A stretch of DNA of 64,000 nucleotides from Terriglobia bacterium (GTDB lineage Bacteria; Acidobacteriota; Vicinamibacteria; Vicinamibacterales; CAVVIG01). This document shows, one piece after another, positions 3,270 through 59,926 of the stretch; the first letter of the stretch is position 1, and each line of letters starts with the position of its first letter. The DNA lies in contig JAIQFX010000044.1 in assembly GCA_020073005.1 (NCBI GenBank), positions 1 through 64,000 of the forward strand. Reading direction: 5' to 3'. Made by a program: the position numbers and the translations under genes. Under the pieces are notes generated by a model, which made no database searches, was not told the DNA's origin, and saw only the letters and a program-made list of their open reading frames with translations.

Positions 3270-4853
3270 GTGGGCACTCTGCGCGTAAGTGACATTCGGG
3301 GAATATCTTGGCTCTCGACGAAGCAATTGGCCGCGATCGTTATGGCGTTGGCAGTGATCTACCCGCTGTCGTTCTGGGGAATGTACTCGGGCGACGCCGA
3401 GATCCATCTCGTATATGCCAAGAACGCTGCGTCAGGGCATTTCTTCGAGTTCAATCCAGGCGAGAAGTCCGCAGGCGTGACGAGTCCGGGCTATATGCTT
3501 CTGCTCGCGACGTTCTTTCGGGTCTTTCGCGCCCAGTCGGTTCCTCTTGCCGTGAAAATCGTCAACATTCTGACTTGGTACGGTGTCGTCCTCGTAGTCT
3601 ACATCCTCAGTCGCTGCATGCTCGCGAACAACCGGTTGGCGCTCGCGGCCGCCGGCGTGACCGCGGTTCTACCGGGCGCCGTCTACAACGCGACGACCGG
3701 AATGGAGAATGGGCTCTTTGCGTTGGTCGTGCTCAGCTGGGCATGGCTCGTCCTCCGCGTTAAGTGGTTCACCGAGGCTCGCGTCGAGGTTGGCCTGGAG
3801 TTGTTGCTCGGAGTCCTGCTCGGAGCTGCGACTTGGCTGAGACCAGAAGCGGTAGTCGTCGGTGCGGTGGCGGCTGGCTGCCGATTCTGGTACGCGAGAG
3901 GACGACGCCGCGAGCTCAGCGTTTCAGTTGCCTTATTCTGCCTCGCGTTCGCCGTGCCGCTCAGCGTGCTCTTGGGGTTTCACGTGGTCCAGACCGGACA
4001 ATGGCTGCCGGCCTCGGGGCGAGCCAGGGTGATCATGGGTCAGCTGGACTCGTATCGATTCGGGCCCTTGGCAGTGAACACCAAGTTCTTGATCAGAATC
4101 CTCGTCTATCTGCCGCTGACGCTCGCGTGGCTCGCGGGAGCGTGGCGTGTCCTGAAGGGCCAGGACGAGGCCGGTACGCACGGCGTCGCAGGGTTCTTCG
4201 TCGCCGTCTTCATCAGCTTCTTTGTCCTGTACAGCACTGTCCTTGGGGCCGACAGTCTCGCGCGCTACACGATCTTCGTCATGCCGATGATGGTTCTCGT
4301 CGCCATCGATGGCACGCGGTGGGTTTGGCAGAACTGGGAGACACTGGCAGCCCGACGTATCGTCGGGCGCGGTTTTGCGTTCGCGGTGGCCGTCGCGATG
4401 CTTCTGATCGTCTTTGCCGGAGAGACGATCGCCCGTCGCCGGGCGCAGATCGGTCAGGCTGAGTTGAGGCGTGCGATGAACGCCCCGTCCGAGGTCGAGT
4501 CAGCGAGCGATCGACTCTTCAACGAACTGGGACGGCCCTCCAAGCGGCCGATCACAATAGCTACGCAAGAAGTGCAGATCCGATATTGGCTGGATGACCG
4601 GTTCGTCGTCCGCTCGCTAGACGGCCGAGTGGACTCGATGCTGCTGGACTTTATTCACGATGGAAACGTGGACCATGTCGGCTATTTGAAGGCCCGGCGC
4701 GTCGACTTTCTGCTCGAAACACGTAACTACAACCGCGATCCGTCGAAATGGTCGCTAGATGCACTGACCGCACTCCGGACCGGTGAAACCACTGTTGTTG
4801 ATGGCCTCAGCTTTACTCGTCTGTCCCGCCCGATCACGTTTCGTCTCAAGTAA
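3270..4853 (+). CDS. Polytopic membrane protein, GT-C/ArnT-like glycosyltransferase (putative)
   Basis: Integral membrane protein of about 527 aa with roughly ten hydrophobic segments and a soluble C-terminal part after residue ~400. The first extracytoplasmic loop has an acidic motif (MYSGDAEIHLVYAKN) followed by SPGYMLLL, resembling the Asp-containing first loop of GT39/GT-C polyprenyl-phosphate-sugar transferases. It may add a lipid-linked sugar to the polysaccharide on the periplasmic side. The start is uncertain: GTG at 3270 is used here, GTG at 3189 would add 27 residues of unconvincing sequence, and ATG at 3342 would start inside the first helix. No good ribosome binding site marks any of them. 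The 222 bases before 3270 show nothing else recognisable. Confidence 0.6.
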   Translation: MGTLRVSDIRGISWLSTKQLAAIVMALAVIYPLSFWGMYSGDAEIHLVYAKNAASGHFFEFNPGEKSAGVTSPGYMLLLATFFRVFRAQSVPLAVKIVNILTWYGVVLVVYILSRCMLANNRLALAAAGVTAVLPGAVYNATTGMENGLFALVVLSWAWLVLRVKWFTEARVEVGLELLLGVLLGAATWLRPEAVVVGAVAAGCRFWYARGRRRELSVSVALFCLAFAVPLSVLLGFHVVQTGQWLPASGRARVIMGQLDSYRFGPLAVNTKFLIRILVYLPLTLAWLAGAWRVLKGQDEAGTHGVAGFFVAVFISFFVLYSTVLGADSLARYTIFVMPMMVLVAIDGTRWVWQNWETLAARRIVGRGFAFAVAVAMLLIVFAGETIARRRAQIGQAELRRAMNAPSEVESASDRLFNELGRPSKRPITIATQEVQIRYWLDDRFVVRSLDGRVDSMLLDFIHDGNVDHVGYLKARRVDFLLETRNYNRDPSKWSLDALTALRTGETTVVDGLSFTRLSRPITFRLK

Positions 4854-4898
4854 ATCCTGAGCTGATCGAATGGGCACCGCGACTGGTGCCTCAATGGG

Positions 4899-5040
4899 AT
4901 GACGCTTCGAAATCAATACCTGTTCTTGCGACGCAATGCCTCGGGGCCTGTGTCAAAGCCCGACGTGTTGCCGCCGGGATTCTCGATTTGCTTTTGGTGT
5001 CAATCCGGCATCTTCGATACGCCGCCTGGAATCACTCTGC
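4899..5040 (+). pseudogene. Out-of-frame N-terminal segment of the GNAT/methyltransferase gene
   Basis: ATG at 4899 opens a frame (MTLRNQYLFLRR...) whose composition and pattern (two or three strands ending in DTPPGI near residue 47) look like the missing N-terminus of the acetyltransferase domain encoded one frame over by the 4936-6186 gene. The downstream frame in the same interval gives implausible Cys/Arg-rich sequence up to about 5040, after which it becomes convincing (VISRVHITYVF). A +1 frame change plus a small deletion around 5020-5045 would join them. It may be a real mutation or a sequencing error. Confidence 0.45.
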
Positions 5041-6186
5041 GGTGGCGTCATATCGCGTGTGCACATTACTTATGTCTTTCGGCGTTACTTTCGATTCCCT
5101 TTCATGGGCCCGTCCGACCTTCAGATCGGCGCCTTGTGGACCGAACCAGAGTACCGCAACAGAGGTCTCGCCAAAGCTGCTCTCGGTCATACGCTCCTGC
5201 GGTTGCAGAATGAGCGAGAAACGCTTTGGTACATCGTGCGTCGCGACAATGCGCCGAGCGTTGCAGTGGGACGCCACTATGGGTTTGGCGGGAGCCTCGA
5301 GGGAGACCGCAAGCCGCTGCTCGGCATCCCGATACTAGGTGTCTACCGTCTGGCCGACGCGAAACGGCCAGCCCGCGACCGCGAGGTTCAAAAGGCCGGA
5401 AGTGAGTTCGTCGCGGTGTCGGAGACGGCTGGTACGTGGGTGACTGAAGAAGGGGCGCGGATGGCGGCCTCGCGGTATGCATGGGCGGCGAGTTTGGCGC
5501 GTGGCCGCGACGTGCTCGAGGTCGGGTGCGGTTCCGCGCAAGGCGGCATGCTCTTGTCACGCGTAGCCAAACGTTTTGTGGCGGGCGACGTCTCCGAGGA
5601 ACTCCTGGCTCGGGCATCACCCGTTGTCAGGAACGTGAGCCAACTCACTCAATTCTCGGCAGAGCGGTTACCCTTTCGTGATGCCTCATTCGATATGGCG
5701 ATCGTGCTCGAAGCCGTCTACTACATAGGAGACACCAAGGCGGCGCTCAGCGAGATCAGACGTGTTCTTCGTGTCGGCGGGCGCGTCGCAATCGTTTCGG
5801 CGAATCCGACGCGCCGCGGGTTCATCGCATCACCGCATTCCGTCCAATATTTCTCGCCAGCGCAACTTGCGCATCTCCTTGGGCGCTGCGGCTTCTCAGA
5901 GTTTCAGTGCTGGGGCGCATTTCCAATCAAGAATGGGCTCGGCCGGGGACGGTTTGAGCGGCCGGTCGAATTCTCCAGAAGAATTGCGAATCATCTCCGG
6001 CTCGTGCCCCGGACGTTGGAAGGTCGCGCCAGACTGAAGGGGATCTTGTACCGCAAGATGATGAGGCTTCCCGAATACTTCACCAACGACTCCGACACAT
6101 CCTCGGAGCTGGAGCGGAGGCCGATCGAGGCGGATTGGAGCCAATACAAGGTCATCTATTTTGTCGCCCAACGGAATGACGTTTAG
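4936..6186 (+). CDS. GNAT-like acetyltransferase fused to SAM-dependent methyltransferase
   Basis: Two-domain protein. Residues ~35-130 resemble the C-terminal half of a GNAT acetyltransferase, including the acetyl-CoA loop (YRNRGLAKAALG) and a late strand/helix (RRDNAPSVAVGRHYGF). Residues ~165-330 are a class I methyltransferase of the Methyltransf_11 type, with SAM motif I (VLEVGCGSAQGG), an acidic motif II (AGDVSEELL) and FDMAIVLEAVYYIGD. It probably modifies a sugar of the polysaccharide. The first ~35 residues as read from ATG 4936 are Cys/Arg-rich and unlike either family. The real N-terminus probably lies in another frame from ATG 4899, so the acetyltransferase half may be broken while the methyltransferase looks intact. 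The gene overlaps the following glycosyltransferase. Confidence 0.75.
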   Translation: MPRGLCQSPTCCRRDSRFAFGVNPASSIRRLESLCGGVISRVHITYVFRRYFRFPFMGPSDLQIGALWTEPEYRNRGLAKAALGHTLLRLQNERETLWYIVRRDNAPSVAVGRHYGFGGSLEGDRKPLLGIPILGVYRLADAKRPARDREVQKAGSEFVAVSETAGTWVTEEGARMAASRYAWAASLARGRDVLEVGCGSAQGGMLLSRVAKRFVAGDVSEELLARASPVVRNVSQLTQFSAERLPFRDASFDMAIVLEAVYYIGDTKAALSEIRRVLRVGGRVAIVSANPTRRGFIASPHSVQYFSPAQLAHLLGRCGFSEFQCWGAFPIKNGLGRGRFERPVEFSRRIANHLRLVPRTLEGRARLKGILYRKMMRLPEYFTNDSDTSSELERRPIEADWSQYKVIYFVAQRNDV

Positions 6187-7444
6187 CGTGGCGGCTTCCA
6201 ATGCCTCGATCCGCACGATCTTCGTCACGCAGTGGTTCGATCCGGAACCTGGGGCCTCGAGGGGTTTGCCGCTCGCCAAATGGTTGTCCGCACACGGCCA
6301 CGACATCCGAGTGCTGACGGCCTTTCCCAACTACCCAGGAGGCCGTTTGTACCCGGGCTACCGCATGTGCTGGCGGCAATGGGAGACCATGAACGGCGTT
6401 CCTGTGTTGCGCGTTCCTTTGTACCCGAGCCACGAGTACTCGATTGGCGCTCGGCTGATGAACTACGGTAGTTTCGCCCTCTCCGCGTCGACGATTGGCG
6501 CGGCGCTGATCGGACCCGGTGACGTTGGGTTCGTCTACCATCCACCGCCGACCGTTGGCCTGGCCGCCGTTGCGTTGAAAGCCTTTCGCGGAATCCCATT
6601 CGTCTACCACATCTCCGACATGTGGCCCGAATCAGTGGTGGAAAGCGGGGCATTAGGTGACGGGCTTTTCGGAAAAGCCACCGAGCGGGGCATCAGCGGC
6701 TGGTGTGACTTCGTTTATCGACGTGCGTCCGCTATCACCGTGCTTTCTCCGGGATTCCGGAAACTCTTGATCGACCGAGGCGTGCCGGCCGAGAAAGTGC
6801 ATGTGATCTACAACTGGGTCGATGAATCGATATTCACGCCTACGGTTCGTGACGAAAAGCTTGCGCGTGCGCTGGGATTTGCCGGACGGTTCAACGTTAT
6901 GTACGCAGGAAACCTGGGGACGTACCAGGGCCTCGACACCATCATCGATGCCGCCGTTTTGCTGCAGGATGTTCCTGAGGTCCAGATCGTAATTGCAGGA
7001 ACCGGCCCTGACGAAAAACGCATCCGCCTCTTCGCCGCTGATAAAGGCGTCAAGAACATCTTGTTTCTCGAGCGGCGTTCGCAGCGAGAGATGGGCGCGG
7101 TGAACAATCTCGCTGATGTATTGCTAGTCCACCTACTCGATCGGCCGATCTTTCACAGCACGATTCCCGGCAAGGCTGCCGTCGCGATGGCAAGCGGCCG
7201 CCCGATACTGATGGCGGTAAGAGGCGATGCGGCGGACACAGTGCTCCGGAGCGACTGCGGACTCGTAATCCCTCCAGAAGATCCCCATGAAATGGCTGCC
7301 GCAATTCGGCGGATGCATGCCATGAATCCACGCGCACGCGAGGCGATGGGCGACAGGGGAAGGAAGTTCTACCTCGAGCATATGGCCCTCGACTTGGGCG
7401 CGGCCCGAATGGATTCCCTGCTTCGGCAGGTCGCCAGAAGCTGA
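6176..7444 (+). CDS. Glycosyltransferase family 4, WbuB-like
   Basis: Cytoplasmic GT-B glycosyltransferase of about 422 aa. The N-terminal half has the WbuB-type opening (IFVTQWFDPEPGASRG, then LTAFPNYPGGRLYPGY). The C-terminal donor-binding half has NVMYAGNLGTYQGLD, FLERRSQREM and PFHSTIPGKAAVAMASGRPIL. Related WbuB enzymes transfer N-acetylfucosamine-type sugars to O-antigen repeats, but the donor here cannot be read from sequence. ATG 6176 lies inside the end of the methyltransferase gene (11-bp overlap); TTG 6161 is an alternative. A paralogue of the same subfamily is at 26964-28223. Confidence 0.88.
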   Translation: MTFSVAASNASIRTIFVTQWFDPEPGASRGLPLAKWLSAHGHDIRVLTAFPNYPGGRLYPGYRMCWRQWETMNGVPVLRVPLYPSHEYSIGARLMNYGSFALSASTIGAALIGPGDVGFVYHPPPTVGLAAVALKAFRGIPFVYHISDMWPESVVESGALGDGLFGKATERGISGWCDFVYRRASAITVLSPGFRKLLIDRGVPAEKVHVIYNWVDESIFTPTVRDEKLARALGFAGRFNVMYAGNLGTYQGLDTIIDAAVLLQDVPEVQIVIAGTGPDEKRIRLFAADKGVKNILFLERRSQREMGAVNNLADVLLVHLLDRPIFHSTIPGKAAVAMASGRPILMAVRGDAADTVLRSDCGLVIPPEDPHEMAAAIRRMHAMNPRAREAMGDRGRKFYLEHMALDLGAARMDSLLRQVARS

Positions 7445-7460
7445 GGCGCCGGAAGTTCTT

Positions 7461-7982
7461 ATGTTTGTGTATGGCGGTCTCACGATTCGTACGGTGGAGG
7501 AATCGGATCTCGATCGCATCAGACTGCTGCGCAACGACCCGTCCACGTGGAAGATGCTCACGACCATCGGGTTCATCGACGCTGCCTCACAGCGGGCGTG
7601 GTTTGAGCGCATTCAAACCGCTCAAGACCGGCGCTATTACGTAATCTGCGACGACGACAGCGACTTCATTGGCATCGTCAGGATGGACGAGATCGATCCG
7701 GCCAATCGAAGCATCCGCATTGGTGCGGATATCGTGCCGGGCCTCCGCGGACGGGGCTACGGTACTCGTATCTTCACGCTGCTGAAAAAGCACTGCTTCG
7801 ATTATCTGAACATGCACAGAGTGTGGCTGGCCGTGCTTGAGGGAAACGAGCCAGCGAGGCGACTCTACGAGAAGCAAGGGTTCCGCGTGGAAGGCCGGTA
7901 CCGTGAAGCCGTGTTCCGGGACGGCTCCTATCACGATTACATCATCATGTCGCTCCTCGAAGAGGAGTACCGCAAGCAATGA
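7461..7982 (+). CDS. GNAT N-acetyltransferase, RimJ/RimL-like (sugar amine acetylation likely)
   Basis: Complete single-domain GNAT protein of 173 aa, about the usual length. The acetyl-CoA loop is visible as PGLRGRGYGTRIF near residue 100, followed by LAVLEGNEPARRLYEKQGF and a C-terminal strand (YHDYIIMSLL). In sugar clusters such proteins (PseH/WecD-like) acetylate amino sugars made by DegT aminotransferases. The ATGA overlap with the adjacent DegT gene supports that pairing. The acceptor is inferred from context only. Confidence 0.85.
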   Translation: MFVYGGLTIRTVEESDLDRIRLLRNDPSTWKMLTTIGFIDAASQRAWFERIQTAQDRRYYVICDDDSDFIGIVRMDEIDPANRSIRIGADIVPGLRGRGYGTRIFTLLKKHCFDYLNMHRVWLAVLEGNEPARRLYEKQGFRVEGRYREAVFRDGSYHDYIIMSLLEEEYRKQ

Positions 7983-9091
7983 GTGTCCGCAAGATCGCGA
8001 TGTTCCAGCCCTACATTGCCGACGGGGCCGTGGACCGCGTCTGCGAGGTGCTCAAGAGTCGATGGGTGGGGCAAGGCGGGCTCGTCGACGAATTAGAAAA
8101 GGACGTCTCCAAGGCGCTGAAGATTCCGTACGCCGTCGCCGTGAACGCCTCGTCTGCAGCCATTCGCCTGGCGCTCACCATCTGTGGGGTTCGACCAGGC
8201 GACGAGGTTATCACGACGCCGATGACCTGTACGCTGACAAATCATCCAATTCTCGAGCAGTTTGCCCGCATCGTTTTTGCTGACGTCCAGTACGAGACGG
8301 GGAACATCGATCCGGTCGACGTCGAGCGGCGGATCACCCCGCAGACGCGGGCCATCATGTGCACGCACTGGGGTGGTCAGCCCGCGGACTTGCATGAGCT
8401 GAACGAAATCGCAAACCGCCATGGCCTCTCAGTGATCGAAGACGCCTCCGAAGCCTTCGGGGCCACCTATCGAGGAGCGCCGATCGGCGCTGTCTCCCGC
8501 TTCGCGGCGTTCTCGTTCCAGGCTATTCAGATCATCTCGGCCGGCGAGGGCGGCCTCCTCGCCGTCAGGGACGAAGGCGCCTTCCGTCAGGCGCGCACGC
8601 TGCGTTGGTATGGGATCGACCGGGACAACAGGAAAGCCAACGCGCTTGGATACTATGACTTCGACATCACGTCGGTGGGATTTGGTTATCACCTGACGAA
8701 CATCGCAGCCGCCATCGGCGTGGAAAACCTCAAGACGCTGGATGCGCAGCGCGCCCATCGGCGGGGGGTCGTGGCGAAGTACCGGTCATCGTTCGCCACG
8801 GCTCCAGGCGTCACGCTCCTGACGGAGCGGCCCGATCGCGAGTCGTCCAATCATTTCTTCACGATGCACGTCGAGCGTCGCGAGGATTTCTGCCGGAAGA
8901 TGAAGGAGGCCGGGATCGAAACGTCCATCGTGCATTACCGCAACGACGCGTACAACGTATTCGGCGGACTCCGGAGCGACCTGATTGGCCTCGAGCGTTT
9001 CTCGCGCTCGTACATCGGCCTGCCAACCCACATGCATTTGGGACCAGATGATGTCGAGCATGTGGTTGCCACGGTGCGCGCAGGATGGTAG
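7979..9091 (+). CDS. DegT/DnrJ/EryC1/StrS-family protein lacking the PLP lysine
   Basis: Aspartate-aminotransferase-fold sugar aminotransferase homologue of 370 aa. Family landmarks are present: NASSAAIRLAL for the phosphate-binding region, DVQYETGNID, and VIEDASEAFGA with the pyridine-binding Asp. At the position of the Schiff-base lysine the sequence is SFQAIQIISAGEGG, so Gln184 (codon 8528-8530) replaces Lys; the adjacent paralogue reads SFQAIKHVCCGDGG. The protein is therefore probably not a conventional PLP aminotransferase. It could be a regulatory or partner subunit of the next gene product, or a PMP-dependent enzyme of another kind. It overlaps the GNAT gene upstream (ATGA) and the next DegT gene by 7 bp. 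Confidence 0.88.
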   Translation: MSVRKIAMFQPYIADGAVDRVCEVLKSRWVGQGGLVDELEKDVSKALKIPYAVAVNASSAAIRLALTICGVRPGDEVITTPMTCTLTNHPILEQFARIVFADVQYETGNIDPVDVERRITPQTRAIMCTHWGGQPADLHELNEIANRHGLSVIEDASEAFGATYRGAPIGAVSRFAAFSFQAIQIISAGEGGLLAVRDEGAFRQARTLRWYGIDRDNRKANALGYYDFDITSVGFGYHLTNIAAAIGVENLKTLDAQRAHRRGVVAKYRSSFATAPGVTLLTERPDRESSNHFFTMHVERREDFCRKMKEAGIETSIVHYRNDAYNVFGGLRSDLIGLERFSRSYIGLPTHMHLGPDDVEHVVATVRAGW

Positions 9092-53176: not shown

Positions 53177-54646
53177 CTACGCTCTTTCGATCCGCTTGAG
53201 TTTTTCGACGAGCGTGGTGCGCTTCAGATTGAGCAGCTTCGCGGCCTGCCCTTTGTTCCCGCCCGTGCGCTCGAGCGCGCGCTGCACGAGGTCGCGCTCG
53301 ATCCCGCCGATGAAGTCGTCCAGGTCCAGTCCGCCTTCGGGCAGCGTGACCGCCGACGCCAGCGCCGCTTCCTGCGCCTGCTGAATCTCGTTCGGCAGAT
53401 CGCCGGCGTCGATCTGCGCGCGGCCCGCGCTGAAGGCGACCGCGCGCTCGACCGCGTTCTCGAGCTGCCGCACGTTGCCCGGCCAGTGGTACGCCATCAG
53501 CCGGCGCATCGCGTCCTGCGACACGCTTTTGCGGACAGATCGCTCGCCTGAAAGACTCGCGCTACGTTCGCCCGCGCTACGTTCGCTCGCGCTACGTTCG
53601 CCCGCGCTACGTTCGCCCGCGCTGCGATCGCCGCTGGCGAGCTTGTCGAGGAAATGCTGGACCAGCAGCGGGATGTCCTCTTTGCGCTCGCGCAGCGGCG
53701 GCAGCTGGACCGGAATCACGTTCAGCCGGTAGAACAGGTCCTCGCGAAACGTCCCCTCGGCCACGAGCCGTCCGAGATCGCTGTTCGTTGCCGCGATCAC
53801 GCGCACATCCACCTTGATGGTGTGATTCGAGTCGCCGACGCGCTCGAACTCACGCTCCTGCAGCACGCGCAGCAGCTTCATCTGCAGCGCCGCGCTCATC
53901 GTGCCGACTTCGTCGAGGAACAGCGTGCCTTTGTGCGCCTGCTCGAGCCGGCCCTGCCGGTTGCCGACGGCGCCCGTGAACGCGCCGCGGACGTGGCCGA
54001 ACAGTTCGGCCTCGAGCAGCGTCTCGGGAATGGCGCTGCAATTGAGCGCGACGAACCGGTGCAGGCGCCGCGGACTGCCCTGATGGATCGCGCGCGCCAC
54101 GACTTCCTTGCCGGTCCCGGTTTCGCCAGTAATAAGGATGGTGCTGCCCGTGGGCGCGACGGTTTCGAGCAGCTGAAACAGCCGCGACATCGCCTGCCCG
54201 CGTCCGACGACGCCTTCGAAGCGATCGCGTTTCTCGAGCTGCGCCCGCAGGTACGCGTTTTCCGATTTCAGCCGGCGCTGTTCGATCGCCGAGTCGAGCA
54301 CGTGGAGCAGCTCGTCGATCTGAAACGGCTTGCTGACGAAATCCCACGCGCCGCGCTTGATGGCTTCGACCGCGTCCTTCACGGTGCCGTAGCCGGTGAC
54401 GACGATCGCGATGATGTCCGGATACCGTTCGACGGCGCCTTCGACGACGGCCGAACCGTCGACGCCGGGCAAACGGAGATCAGTAATGATGATGTCGAAC
54501 GCGAAGTCGGCCAGCTTGGCGAGCGCCGCTTCGCCCGTGTCGACCTGCTCGACCTGATAGCCGCGGTCCGCCAGCTGCTCCGCGATCGCCACCCGCAGAG
54601 GGGCCTCGTCTTCGACCAGCAAGAGATGTTTTGTAGAATCAGTCAT
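53177..54646 (-). CDS. NtrC-family sigma-54-dependent response regulator
   Basis: 489 aa. The N-terminal receiver domain has phospho-acceptor Asp56 (IIITDLRLPGVDG) and VVTGYGTVKDAVEAIKRGAWDF. The AAA+ domain (~145-380) has Walker A GETGTGKE, the sigma-54 contact loop GAFTGA and Walker B GTLFLDEVG. A Fis-type HTH ends the protein (ERTGGNKGQAAKLLNLKRTTL). Between the AAA+ core and the lid there is an insertion of about 30 residues made of Gly/Ser-Glu-Arg-Ser-Ala repeats (see the repeat entry). It activates sigma-54 promoters; the paired kinase may be the hybrid kinase at 56450-57973. Confidence 0.94.
   Translation of the reverse strand: MTDSTKHLLLVEDEAPLRVAIAEQLADRGYQVEQVDTGEAALAKLADFAFDIIITDLRLPGVDGSAVVEGAVERYPDIIAIVVTGYGTVKDAVEAIKRGAWDFVSKPFQIDELLHVLDSAIEQRRLKSENAYLRAQLEKRDRFEGVVGRGQAMSRLFQLLETVAPTGSTILITGETGTGKEVVARAIHQGSPRRLHRFVALNCSAIPETLLEAELFGHVRGAFTGAVGNRQGRLEQAHKGTLFLDEVGTMSAALQMKLLRVLQEREFERVGDSNHTIKVDVRVIAATNSDLGRLVAEGTFREDLFYRLNVIPVQLPPLRERKEDIPLLVQHFLDKLASGDRSAGERSAGERSASERSAGERSASLSGERSVRKSVSQDAMRRLMAYHWPGNVRQLENAVERAVAFSAGRAQIDAGDLPNEIQQAQEAALASAVTLPEGGLDLDDFIGGIERDLVQRALERTGGNKGQAAKLLNLKRTTLVEKLKRIERA
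53559..53633 (+). repeat. 15-bp tandem repeat inside the NtrC-type gene
   Basis: Five adjacent 15-bp units; the first four read GCGCTACGTTCGCCC with one change (unit 2 has CTC at its end) and the fifth is degenerate. On the coding strand they give the pentapeptide repeat GERSA/SERSA in the response regulator. The unit length is a multiple of three, so copy-number changes keep the frame. Confidence 0.85.
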
Positions 54647-55501: not shown

Positions 55502-56446
55502 ATGCGTGTTCAGCCCGTTGCCGCCAATCAGAACCGCCGTATCGTCGCCAGCTTGCCGTTTGTCGAGGCGCTGGCTCGACGAATGGCTGCGTCGATGCCG
55601 AATTCGATCGACATCGGCGATCTCGTGCAGGACGGCGTGCTCGGTCTCATCGATGCCGCGCATCGCTTCGATGAAGATCGCGGCATCAAGTTCGAGACGT
55701 TCGCGGAACGGCGCGTGCGCGGCGCGATGATCGACGCGCTTCGCAAGGACGCGTGGCCCCGCGGCGTCCGCCGCCAGCGGCGCGAGCTCGACGCGGCCCG
55801 CGAAGCGCTGCGCCGCGAGCTGGGACACGAGCCGTCGATGGCCGACCTCGCCGCGCGCGTCGGCTCGGACGAGAAACGGCTGAGCCGGACCATCGTGCGC
55901 ATCAACACGATCGAAGCGACGTCGCCGCTCGCGACGGGCGAGCACATGGACGAGAACTCGCTGCCGACCGTGCTCGTGCCGTCGGAGCCCGACGCGCCGG
56001 ACATGGCCTACGAAAAGGCCGAGACGCGCGACCGCGTGCGCGCCGCGATTCAATCGCTCCCCTGGCGCGAGCGGAAAGTGATCGGGCTCTACTACTACGG
56101 CGAAGTGACGATGAAGCAGATCGGCGCCGAGATCGGCGTCAACGAATCGCGCGTCTCGCAGCTTCATGCGCGCGCGATCCGCCGCCTGCGCGACGCGATC
56201 GGCGACATGAACCCGCAGAAGATCGCCGAGATGCGCCGTCAGCTGATCGCGTTCGCGGTGAAGAAGCCGGTGATGGCGAAGGCGGACGTTCGCTCTGCGT
56301 ATAAGCCGGACGCGACGATGACCGCCGAGACGGTCGCCACGCCGCACGCCGTCGTCCTGCCGTACAAGGCGACGAAACGTACGGCGCCCGTGAAGGCGAC
56401 GCTCAAGATGGCGCGGTCGCGGCAGGCAGTCGCGGCGGCGAGGTAG
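55502..56446 (+). CDS. RNA polymerase sigma factor, sigma-28/FliA-like, with C-terminal extension
   Basis: 314 aa. Sigma region 2 is clear (IDIGDLVQDGVLGLIDAAHRFDEDRGIKFETFAERRVRGAMID), region 3 is RRQRRELDAAREALRRELGHEPSMADLA, and region 4 has LPWRERKVIGLYYYGEVTMKQIGAEIGVNESRVSQLHARAI. This ordering and the wording of region 2 match FliA/SigD-type factors. The last ~85 residues (after MNPQKIAE) are basic and not part of the sigma fold. AGGAGA lies 8 nt before the ATG, so the start is well supported. No flagellar genes are visible nearby. Confidence 0.9.
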   Translation: MRVQPVAANQNRRIVASLPFVEALARRMAASMPNSIDIGDLVQDGVLGLIDAAHRFDEDRGIKFETFAERRVRGAMIDALRKDAWPRGVRRQRRELDAAREALRRELGHEPSMADLAARVGSDEKRLSRTIVRINTIEATSPLATGEHMDENSLPTVLVPSEPDAPDMAYEKAETRDRVRAAIQSLPWRERKVIGLYYYGEVTMKQIGAEIGVNESRVSQLHARAIRRLRDAIGDMNPQKIAEMRRQLIAFAVKKPVMAKADVRSAYKPDATMTAETVATPHAVVLPYKATKRTAPVKATLKMARSRQAVAAAR

Positions 56447-56449
56447 CGG

Positions 56450-57973
56450 TCAGGAGAGGCCGTCGCGCACCGCGCGCAGCAGGTCGCCCAGGCGGAACGG
56501 TTTCGCCAGCCACCGGCAGCCGCTCTCCTGAAGAAACTTCTCCGCGTCGGTGCCGGCCACGTCACCCGTGACGAAGATCACGCGTTTGGCCAGCGCCGGC
56601 GCCGCGGACGCGAGCTCGCGCGAGAACGACTGGCCGTCGAGCCGCGGCATCTTCAAGTCACAAATCACCAGATCGAACGGCTCGGCTTTGATCTTCGCGA
56701 GCGCCTCGATGCCGTCCACCGCGTGCTGGACGACGTAGCCCGCGTCGCGCAGCGCGTCGACGACGGCGCTCGCCAGCTTCGTCTCATCCTCGACGACGAG
56801 AATCGCCGCGCCGACGACCGCCTTGACGGGCTCGGACAGGCGCGCCTTCATGCCGCCCTCCGGCCCGAGCTTCCTGCCGCTGACCGGGACCTCGACGAAG
56901 AATGACGCGCCGGCGTTCGGACGCGACTCGAGCCGGATGCGGCCGCCGTGCTCCTGCACGATCGCGTACGCGACGGTCAAGCCGAGTCCCGTCCCCTTGC
57001 CGACTTCCTTCGTGGTGAAGAACGGATCGAAGATCTTCGGCTGCAGCTCGTCCGGAATCCCAGGGCCATCGTCGTTGATCTCGAGAATGACGGATTCCTG
57101 CTCGGCGTTGTGCCACGTGCGCACGACGAGGACGCCGCGTCCGTGCGCCGACAGCATCGCCTGCTCGGCGTTGATCACGAGATTCAGCAGCACCTGCTGG
57201 AGCTGATGGCCGTCCGCGAACACCTGCGGCAGGCCGGCGGCCAGCGCGTCGATCACGCTGATGTTGGTGACGCGCTGATCGTACGCGCGCAGCGCCAGCG
57301 TTTCGCGGACCACTTGATTGATGTCCACCATCGCGCGCGTCGTCTGACGCTTGCGGGCGAAGGTGAGCAGGTTGCGGACGATCCGTGCGGCGCGTTCGGC
57401 CTCCGACTGGATCGTCTCCACGCCGCGGCGCACCGGATCGTCGAGCGTGCGCTGCGACAACCGCTCGGCCCAGCTGAGGATCGTCGCCAGCGGATTGTTC
57501 AGCTCGTGCGCGACGCCGGACATCGTCTGGCCGAGCGCGGCCATCTTCTCCGCCTGCAGCAGCTGGTGATAAATGTCGCGCGTCTCGTCGTCGAGCTTCT
57601 TGCGCTCGCTCACGTCGCGGATCAGCGCCTCGACGCGGACCGTGCCGTCCTCCGCCGGCGGATCCGCGCGCGCCGTCAGCTCCACCCAGGCGGGATTGCC
57701 GTCCGCGCGGCGCAGGCGCATCAGATAGTTGTTCACCGATCCATCGGTCGAGAGACGCTCGACGAGCGCGACGCGCGCCTGCGGATCGACGAATCGCTCG
57801 TGATCGAACGGACGGACGTCGCCCTCCGGCGCCTCGCTCGGGTACCCGAAGATCAGTTTGAGGTGGGGATTGGCGGCAATCGTCGACGTGGTCGCGGGAC
57901 CGATCGTCCCGATGTACACGCCTTCGTGCACGGCCTCGAACAGCCGCGCGAATGCCGATGCGCGTCGCTCCAC
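56450..57973 (-). CDS. Hybrid sensor histidine kinase (PAS-HisKA-HATPase-REC)
   Basis: 507 aa, no membrane helix, so cytoplasmic. A PAS/PAC sensor spans residues ~8-125 (VRVEALIRDVSERKK at its end). HisKA has phospho-His156 in SGVAHELNNPLATIL. HATPase_c follows with VLLNLVINAEQAM, EINDDGPGIP, FFTTKEVGKGTGLGL. The C-terminal receiver has the phospho-Asp in LVICDLKMPRLDG and VTGDVAGTDAEKF with KPF near the end. It may pass phosphate to the NtrC-type regulator or the orphan DHp-like protein. It converges on the sigma gene with a 3-bp gap. Confidence 0.93.
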   Translation of the reverse strand: MERRASAFARLFEAVHEGVYIGTIGPATTSTIAANPHLKLIFGYPSEAPEGDVRPFDHERFVDPQARVALVERLSTDGSVNNYLMRLRRADGNPAWVELTARADPPAEDGTVRVEALIRDVSERKKLDDETRDIYHQLLQAEKMAALGQTMSGVAHELNNPLATILSWAERLSQRTLDDPVRRGVETIQSEAERAARIVRNLLTFARKRQTTRAMVDINQVVRETLALRAYDQRVTNISVIDALAAGLPQVFADGHQLQQVLLNLVINAEQAMLSAHGRGVLVVRTWHNAEQESVILEINDDGPGIPDELQPKIFDPFFTTKEVGKGTGLGLTVAYAIVQEHGGRIRLESRPNAGASFFVEVPVSGRKLGPEGGMKARLSEPVKAVVGAAILVVEDETKLASAVVDALRDAGYVVQHAVDGIEALAKIKAEPFDLVICDLKMPRLDGQSFSRELASAAPALAKRVIFVTGDVAGTDAEKFLQESGCRWLAKPFRLGDLLRAVRDGLS

Positions 57974-57992: not shown

Positions 57993-58020
57993 GGTGACTG
58001 GTGACTGGTGACTGGTGACT
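57993..58020. repeat. 7-bp tandem repeat (GGTGACT x4)
   Basis: Four perfect head-to-tail copies of GGTGACT in the 87-bp gap upstream of the hybrid kinase and downstream of the PCYCGC gene. A shorter related run (CCAGCCACCAGCCACCA) follows at about 58040. This is intergenic simple-sequence DNA; no coding role is seen. Confidence 0.9.
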
Positions 58021-58060
58021 AAAGACGGGTGCGTTCTTTCCAGCCACCAGCCACCAACCC

Positions 58061-58684
58061 TCACTTCGTCGGCGCCGGCGCCGTCGGCGTATGCGTCGGA
58101 TAGGTGCCCGACCACTTTTTTTCGTTCGCGGCCCGAATGTCCCGCACCGAGGCGCCCGAGTTGTACATCTGCATCGCGTCACGCGCGACGTCCAGGCAGA
58201 TGGCTCATGTCATGCCGTGCGGCTCCCACTGCGTCACGTCGCCCTTCGCGTCCCGGGCCGTGACGAAGCAATCTTCGTTGCCGCGATGTCCGGAATGCTC
58301 GCAGCCGCAGTAGCACGGCACGTAGCTCAACACTTCCGGATGCTCGGCGGCGAACTTGTACGCCGCGCGCACGGTTTCCATCGGCCGCGCCGGCGGCTCG
58401 GGATCGAAGGGCAGCGGCGGCAGATTCTCCTGAGGATGCGGACCGAGCTTCGCCGATTCCGGCGGATCGACCACGGCCGGCAGTGGCGCCGTTTGCGCGG
58501 CCGGCTGCGTCGCAGCGGGACCCGACGATCGCATGTAGACCAGCGCGCCGCCGATCACGAGAATCAGCGCGGCGCCCGCGAGCATCATCGGCATCGATGA
58601 TCGCGGCGGCTCTGCCGGTGGTGTCGAGGATGCCCCCGGCCGGGCCTGCGCTTTGGCGGAAGATTTGCGACCCATCATTTTCAT
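58061..58684 (-). CDS. PCYCGC-motif membrane protein, candidate selenoprotein (in-frame TGA)
   Basis: 207 residues if the internal TGA is decoded. An N-terminal basic region and one membrane helix (MLAGAALILVIGGALVYM, residues ~34-51) put the rest outside the membrane. The PCYCGC family signature is at 123-128, followed by HSGHRGNEDCF (Cys139) and QWEPHGMT. Codon 160 is TGA (58205-58207) where the family has the first Cys of C-x-x-C, and the frame continues AICLDVARDAMQMYNSGASVRDIR through to a genuine TGA at 58061-58063. The downstream part matches the family's C-terminal helices, so a truncated product ending at T159 is unlikely to be the full protein. A SECIS-like hairpin follows. The alternatives are a real nonsense mutation or a base error. 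ATG 58684 is used; 58696 or 58675 are possible. Function of the family is unknown; U-x-x-C suggests redox or metal binding. Confidence 0.8.
58166..58202 (-). promoter_or_regulatory. Candidate bacterial SECIS hairpin
   Basis: In the mRNA, two nt after the in-frame UGA of the PCYCGC gene, CAUCUGC (58202-58196) pairs perfectly with GCAGAUG (58172-58166). Above a six-nt bulge (CUGGAC), GUCGCG pairs with CGCGAU (one G-U) and leaves a five-nt loop CGUGA (58183-58179). The loop begins 21 nt after the UGA and has G among its first two bases, as known for bacterial SECIS elements read by SelB. The hairpin lies entirely within coding sequence. Confidence 0.6.
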
Positions 58685-58726: not shown

Positions 58727-59926
58727 ATGAATCTTGTTGGGCGTCAGGACCGCCTGTTGCTCGGCGGTCTGGCCGTCGCCGTGATCGTCGTCTTCGCGCG
58801 GCCGATCGAGCGCTACGGCCTCAGCCTGGCGCGCGAAGCCGAGCGCAGCTCCGGCCTCGCCCTCGTGCCCGCGCTGCTGATTCTGGTCGCGGTTTTCCTC
58901 TTCCATCAGCAAGGCAAACGTCAGGAAGCGAGAGCGCGCACCACGGCGGCGGAAGCCGACGCGAAACAGGCGGGCGCGCGCGCCGCGGAGATGGAGCGGC
59001 TCGTCAATCTCGGTCAGGCGCTCGCCCGATCGCTCGATCTGGAAACGATTCGCGACGCCGTGCTGCAGCACCTGCCCAAGCTCGCGGGCACCGAGGACGT
59101 CTGGATCCTTCTGCGCGTGAGCGGCCACTGGCAGGCGCTGGTCGGCCCGGCGCGCGACACGCGCCGCGAGATCGAGCGCGCGCGCGAGCACGTGGCCGAT
59201 CGCGCGCTGGCCGGCGATCTCGCACCCGAGGGTCTGGCCGCCGACGGACAGTATTGCCTGCGGCTCACGGCGGGCGGGGACATCGTCGGCGTGCTCGGCG
59301 TGCCCGAGACCGACGGCCCGATCCAGGAGGCGCGGAAGCGCGTGCTGGCGACGGCCGGGGCGCTGCTCGGCATCTCGCTTCGCAACGCGCAGCTGTTCCA
59401 CGAAATCCGCGAGACCAGCCTCCGCGACGGCCTGACCGGCTGCTACAACCGCACGCACGCGCTCGAAGTGATCGACTCGGAGCTGCGCCGCGCCCGGCGA
59501 TCGCAGATGCCGATGTCGCTCATCATGTTCGATCTCGATCACTTCAAGGACGTCAACGATCGCTACGGCCATCTCTGCGGCGACGCGGTGCTGGCGGGCG
59601 TCGGCGTCAAGATGCGCGACGCCCTCCGCGGCAGCGATCTGAAATGCCGGTACGGCGGCGAAGAATTTCTCGTGCTGCTGCCGGAGACGCCGCTCGAAGG
59701 CGCCAAGCGCGTCGCGGACTCGCTGCGCCGCGAGCTCGCGGACATGCGCATCACGTGGAAGGACGATTCGCTCACGGTGACGGCGAGCTTCGGCGTCTCC
59801 GTCGCGCTGCCGGCCGAAGTCGACGGCCAGGCGCTCATCGCCCGCGCGGACGCGGCCCTCTACCGCGCCAAAGATCAGGGACGCAACTGCGTCCGCCTTT
59901 CGATCGAAACCGCCGTCGTCGCATAA
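58727..59926 (+). CDS. GGDEF diguanylate cyclase with membrane anchor and GAF-like domain
   Basis: 399 aa. Two N-terminal hydrophobic helices (residues ~10-25 and 43-60), a short coiled coil, a GAF-like domain (~85-215) and a C-terminal GGDEF domain. The active site is RYGGEEF, with an inhibitory I-site RxxD (RGSD) five residues upstream, and FDLDHFKDVNDRYGH for metal/GTP binding. It should synthesise c-di-GMP with product inhibition. It is divergent from the candidate selenoprotein gene (42 bp between starts) and opposes the HD-GYP phosphodiesterase at 51671-53173 in function. Confidence 0.93.
   Translation: MNLVGRQDRLLLGGLAVAVIVVFARPIERYGLSLAREAERSSGLALVPALLILVAVFLFHQQGKRQEARARTTAAEADAKQAGARAAEMERLVNLGQALARSLDLETIRDAVLQHLPKLAGTEDVWILLRVSGHWQALVGPARDTRREIERAREHVADRALAGDLAPEGLAADGQYCLRLTAGGDIVGVLGVPETDGPIQEARKRVLATAGALLGISLRNAQLFHEIRETSLRDGLTGCYNRTHALEVIDSELRRARRSQMPMSLIMFDLDHFKDVNDRYGHLCGDAVLAGVGVKMRDALRGSDLKCRYGGEEFLVLLPETPLEGAKRVADSLRRELADMRITWKDDSLTVTASFGVSVALPAEVDGQALIARADAALYRAKDQGRNCVRLSIETAVVA

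Follow-up and report, generated by a model that had tools for sequence, protein, structure and literature searches.

What does a TGA codon mean when the reading frame in which it lies continues beyond it? The question is raised by a gene on the minus strand of a 64,000-nucleotide stretch of DNA from an uncultured acidobacterium (positions 1 to 64,000 of contig JAIQFX010000044.1, assembly GCA_020073005.1, Terriglobia bacterium; here called the window), which encodes a protein of the PCYCGC family (PF13798). The best explanation, to which we give a probability of about 0.93, is that this UGA, which stands at the position of a family cysteine and is followed by a conserved hairpin, is read as selenocysteine (Sec), giving the motif U160-A-I-C163. 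The gene and its parts are as follows.

58061..58684, minus strand: PF13798 (PCYCGC) selenoprotein gene, 207 residues given read-through of the internal TGA
58205..58207, minus strand: in-frame TGA, codon 160, predicted selenocysteine; throughout the class the column holds TGA or Cys
58196..58207, minus strand: U-A-I-C motif, residues 160-163, a predicted redox pair that opens a predicted helix
58301..58318, minus strand: PCYCGC motif, residues 123-128, its three Cys near-invariant
58529..58591, minus strand: predicted N-terminal membrane helix, residues 32-52 (a hydrophobic run, with a helix in a low-confidence region of the model)

The reading frame and its product

Read on the minus strand, positions 58684-58061 translate from an ATG through PCYCGC and HGMT-TGA-AIC to TPTAPAPTK, where a second TGA (58063-58061), 47 codons beyond the internal one, forms the true stop, in agreement with a first-pass annotation made from the sequence alone. 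The product matches PF13798 with 92 bits (E 4.6e-26), above the Pfam gathering cut-off of 25 bits, and the best stretch of the match, residues 103-201, covers both sides of the TGA; the gene is the single match to this family in the host genome. Its cysteines comprise a CxCxC cluster, one further conserved residue (Cys139) and Cys163 of the UxxC motif, and the product is predicted to be a small cysteine-rich, N-terminally anchored extracytoplasmic protein. A PDB sequence search with the protein returned a single match, at E 0.97, and no relative.

It could be argued that the TGA is a genuine stop, that the product has 159 residues and that the downstream part has decayed. Indeed, gene finders have ended two near relatives at this point: the closest database proteins, P0002 (90% identical, 155 residues) and P0003 (86%, 159 residues), seen as protein records only, both terminate at HGMT, the residues that precede the TGA here. 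The truncation that the first-pass annotation had foreseen thus appears to occur, with gene finders cutting the gene short at the TGA. Whether the cell does so too can be judged from relatives.

Cysteine or TGA at one column

To this end 193 genomes of the class were searched; 101 carry PF13798, in 109 genes, all of which were aligned to a hidden Markov model of the family. At the Sec160 column, 46 genes have TGA, 63 have Cys and none has any third state, which bears out the earlier placement of the TGA on a family cysteine and is the result of the homologue alignment that had been proposed as a check. The remaining cysteine columns are close to invariant: 108 (with one gap), 109 and 109 of the 109 genes for the PCYCGC motif, 109 for Cys139 and 107 for Cys163. 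In nine pairs of TGA genes, the ratio of nonsynonymous to synonymous substitution rates (dN/dS) after the TGA is 0.05-0.23 over 45-51 codons, so that purifying selection acts downstream of it; taken with the TGA column shared by 46 of the 109 genes, this places the open frame past the TGA beyond chance. Selection of this kind, the fact that Cys is the sole residue that TGA replaces, and the frozen codons described below all speak against a true stop with a decayed remainder, the probability of which we regard as close to negligible.

A doubt over sequencing error is answered within the genus, where the TGA recurs in two further genomes (G022 and G023), one of which, G022, also has the same gene order; this is not a read error. 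Beyond the class, PF13798 was matched in 81 of the 396 genomes of a phylum sample. Six TGA rows come from outside the class, and five of these have the TGA at the Sec column. One outside-class TGA row, L168, was considered as a Sec form and rejected, its TGA being an ordinary stop with Cys at the column.

Selenocysteine machinery in the genome

The host assembly (5.86 Mb, 179 contigs, 100% complete, 4.6% contaminated) contains every component that the first-pass annotation had proposed to look for. These are tRNA-Sec (60.4 bits, cut-off 47; anticodon TCA by ARAGORN), selA (541 bits, cut-off 268), selB (347.6 bits, cut-off 242) and selD (349 bits, cut-off 125), and matches were counted only above cut-off because control genomes also gave weak ones. 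Rfam and tRNA scans of the 64-kb window itself gave no matches. L047, from a relative in the genus, shows the same arrangement of genes in this region, and mis-binning of the contig therefore looks unlikely. Across the class, 149 of the 193 genomes have a selA match with an E value no higher than 1e-60. The selA-bearing genomes hold 44 of the 46 TGA genes, the remaining two lying in metagenome-assembled genomes that are 81 and 90% complete; of the 55 genomes whose family members are all Cys forms, 35 have selA (Fisher p 7e-5, uncorrected for relatedness).

selD itself has one in-frame TGA, at residue 11 of the translated stretch (L018 1531-1580), and downstream of this lies a strong hairpin (z -2.33). 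The formate dehydrogenase model, by comparison, has 15 matches in the genome and none with an in-frame TGA, and the PCYCGC protein may therefore be one of the reasons for which the Sec machinery is kept.

These results bear on a second alternative, in which the UGA is decoded as Trp, Cys or Arg through general recoding or suppression. Such decoding is compatible with the open frame alone. Against it stand the TGA codons that terminate the 58061-58684 gene itself and the neighbouring kinase, the exclusive alternation with Cys at the column, the genome's Sec machinery and the codon constraint, resembling that of a selenocysteine insertion sequence (SECIS), that is set out below; we consider it very improbable.

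A hairpin downstream of the UGA

58172..58190, minus strand: predicted SECIS apical hairpin CGUCGCG[CGUGA]CGCGAUG, loop 21 nt past the TGA, with frozen codons and conserved pairing

A bacterial SECIS (bSECIS), as outlined in a recent review, has a loop of 3-9 nt, an upper stem of 4-16 bp, a G in the first two loop positions and a spacing of 16-37 nt (PMC13188914). The window hairpin, with a 7-bp stem, the loop CGUGA, a spacing of 21 nt from the TGA and an energy of -8.8 kcal/mol, has this shape, as do hairpins in all 46 TGA genes and in 16 of the 63 Cys genes; with an apical energy of -7.5 or lower the counts become 28 TGA genes and three Cys genes. Folding energy as a test for SECIS did not separate TGA from Cys genes.

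The more telling signal lies in the codons. Those at +6 to +9 past the TGA, at the place expected of a bSECIS apical hairpin, are held to a single synonymous spelling, GTC GCG CGT GAC (entropy 0.00, 0.00, 0.18 and 0.00 bits, against 1.30, 1.43, 1.37 and 0.76 bits for the corresponding residues in Cys genes), and the exact 12-mer GTCGCGCGTGAC occurs in 35 of the 46 TGA genes and in none of the 63 Cys genes. When one gene per genus is taken (the TGA genes coming from nine families, with families f18 and f19 left out), the fraction of same-codon pairs at +6 to +9 is 0.97 among 21 TGA genes versus 0.47 among 35 Cys genes; elsewhere in the TGA genes it averages 0.52, with 0.76 in the highest window. 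Over 31 distinct sequences (input, 32 of the 37 TGA genes outside f18), 99.5% of the cells of the stem CGUCGCG/CGCGAUG are paired, and two base pairs are changed on both sides, each of them in L119. An alternative apical fold, CGUC[GCGCGU]GACG, in which one pair is broken and none is changed on both sides, was set aside in favour of the 7-bp stem, a preference that rests on the two changes in that one sequence, L119.

Hairpins of other kinds accompany the TGA elsewhere. In family f18 all nine TGA genes have a different one with the loop GUC, where the order to which the window belongs has CGUGA. Four of the five outside-class genes with TGA at the column show, by eye, an AAGGAG...CUCCUU arrangement similar to that of f18, and the fifth, L167, has a 6-bp hairpin with the loop UGGAC.

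Collectively, the Sec genes and the Cys/TGA column strongly support, at the level of sequence, the U160-x-x-C163 that the first-pass annotation had derived from Sec insertion, and of the three outcomes that it had listed as refuting, none was obtained. The hairpin CGUCGCG[CGUGA]CGCGAUG, the loop of which starts 21 nt past the UGA, would serve as the binding site of SelB, which would deliver to the UGA a Sec-tRNA(Sec) produced by means of the SelA and SelD that the genome encodes, so that translation could continue with Sec at residue 160. The Sec-x-x-Cys would then sit at the start of a helix in the predicted anchored extracytoplasmic product, which may be a thiol/selenol-disulfide oxidoreductase whose substrates are thiols outside the cytoplasm, perhaps in a metal-linked process.

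Sec and Cys forms at a shared locus

The following neighbours surround the gene.

56450..57973, minus strand: histidine kinase with receiver domain, the next gene on the same strand and a conserved neighbour
55502..56446, plus strand: sigma-70 family sigma factor, a conserved neighbour
53177..54646, minus strand: NtrC-type response regulator, a conserved neighbour
58727..59926, plus strand: GGDEF protein, the divergent upstream neighbour, found in 6 of 23 loci

For the class, 23 loci were examined, namely the window, L047, L051 and 20 others chosen for their long contigs. In 21 of them the histidine kinase lies 10-205 nt downstream of the gene on the same strand, and beyond it come the sigma factor on the opposite strand and the NtrC-type regulator on the same strand as the gene. 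These 21 syntenic loci comprise 13 Sec and eight Cys forms, and the two exceptions, L152 and L153, are both Sec. As Sec and Cys forms share one syntenic locus, they are orthologues.

A single Sec clade is rejected (p-AU, the P value of the approximately unbiased test, 0.008) on a reduced quick tree of 86 of the 109 rows. Left out of it were all 11 rows from f18 and f19 and 12 others that were long, odd or partial, and masking covered codons +6 to +10 as well as the Sec column; five changes are needed on this tree, three of them forced by strongly supported branches. The full quick tree requires 10 Sec/Cys changes, two of them forced. Given the shared locus and the rejection of a single Sec clade, Sec and Cys have probably been exchanged in place more than once, although these are quick trees and neither tells gain from loss. 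We infer that the shared 12-mer favours a Sec form of old standing that was lost several times. Three genomes hold both Sec and Cys genes of the family: G012 (L046/L032), G013 (L044/L024) and G068 (L104/L100).

Two further features of the locus may be recorded. The NtrC-type regulator (53177-54646, minus strand) contains an in-frame SAGER-like linker repeat (GERSAGERSAGERSASERSAGERSAS) without counterpart in the genus relative L047, and between the selenoprotein gene and the kinase (about 58000-58060 of the window) lie repeated CACCAGT and complementary GGCTGGTG stretches.

Relation to known selenoproteins

The designation as a candidate selenoprotein was right, but the kind, both family and UxxC position, had already been published. 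The known members go by the name OS_HP4, which was reportedly coined in a 2007 paper. A list of prokaryotic selenoproteins in a 2026 review contains a CYCXC family protein (hypothetical protein OS_HP4) with PF13798 and UxxC (PMC13188914), and an entry in a 2022 review gives OS_HP4 with UxxC, citing a paper on Olavius algarvensis (PMC9312934). The window protein shares with these the Pfam family PF13798 and the Sec in UxxC. Its match to the corresponding model, NF041379 ('CYCXC family (seleno)protein'), reaches 71 bits, below the curated cut-off of 90; this makes it a divergent branch, assigned to PF13798 only. A TGA member of the class from f18, L128, passes the model with 98.7 bits, whereas eight further TGA proteins of the window's order score 61-76 bits. 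The scored members of the order, being under the NCBI cut-off, are probably truncated in databases. Cys orthologues of the order, the closest about 60-66% identical to the window protein, have the same locus and neighbours and differ in that Cys replaces Sec and the frozen 12-mer is absent. No account of the acidobacterial branch was found in the literature searched, the coverage of which excluded most subscription papers. The window protein is thus a new, divergent member that extends a known selenoprotein family. What is new is the occurrence of Sec forms in nine families within the order, the syntenic Sec and Cys forms and the remote likeness to CcmH described below; the Sec form also occurs in one more family of the class and in other families of the phylum, from at least four additional genomes.

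Possible role of the protein

As to function, an extracytoplasmic CcmH-like protein for thiol/selenol redox or metal handling seems most likely, a tentative assignment held at somewhat less than even odds. It is the remote likeness to CcmH that makes a thiol/selenol-disulfide oxidoreductase the most likely role. Profile comparison with CcmH gave a score of 36.9 (P 7.9e-5, probability 61%), against at most 18.9 for 20 column shuffles and 23.8 for 22 other families, and CcmH domains ranked second and third in a structural second look. Pfam CcmH (PF03918) was not listed at E up to 10 for eight family proteins, and the PCYCGC family is set apart from CcmH by an additional pair of strands and by its UxxC. 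The genome has a CcmH of its own, at a site separate from the PCYCGC gene, where the domain forms a fusion with a CcmF-like frame (L165 28-1887). Judged by titles, no paper linking CcmH to selenoproteins was found in the literature searched.

The protein could instead be mainly a binder of copper or a similar metal outside the cytoplasm, with the CxCxC cluster, the fourth Cys and Sec/Cys as ligands, and with Sec tuning the metal site rather than serving thiol exchange; such a role would compete with the redox one and leave Sec itself unaffected. The CxCxC does adjoin a further conserved Cys, and some members have metal-related neighbours. In L152 (G191; positions 4774-8485), where a Sec form lies away from the common locus, the gene starts 2 nt past a CusA/CzcA-family heavy-metal efflux gene; L052 (Ilumatobacteraceae), a Cys form, has a multicopper oxidase about 2.6 kb away; and a Parageobacillus member of the family is mentioned in one report as adjoining a gene for an iron-binding protein (PMC13068155). 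However, such neighbours are few and scattered, with regulators in their place at 21 of the 23 class loci, and a UxxC at the start of a helix is the arrangement of a redox motif. On balance a mainly metal-binding role is somewhat less likely than the redox one.

Returning to the CcmH-like reading, it is conceivable, though less likely than not, that the PCYCGC family as a whole is an offshoot of CcmH for extracytoplasmic thiols or metals, in which, within one acidobacterial order, Sec and Cys have repeatedly been exchanged as the active residue at the same locus and the SECIS erased with each loss. For an uncharacterised selenoprotein family, the CcmH likeness provides a testable biochemical hypothesis, and the occurrence of Sec and Cys orthologues in one locus makes direct comparison possible. 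If true, the repeated exchange at the same locus would constitute a natural series on what selenium gives an enzyme.
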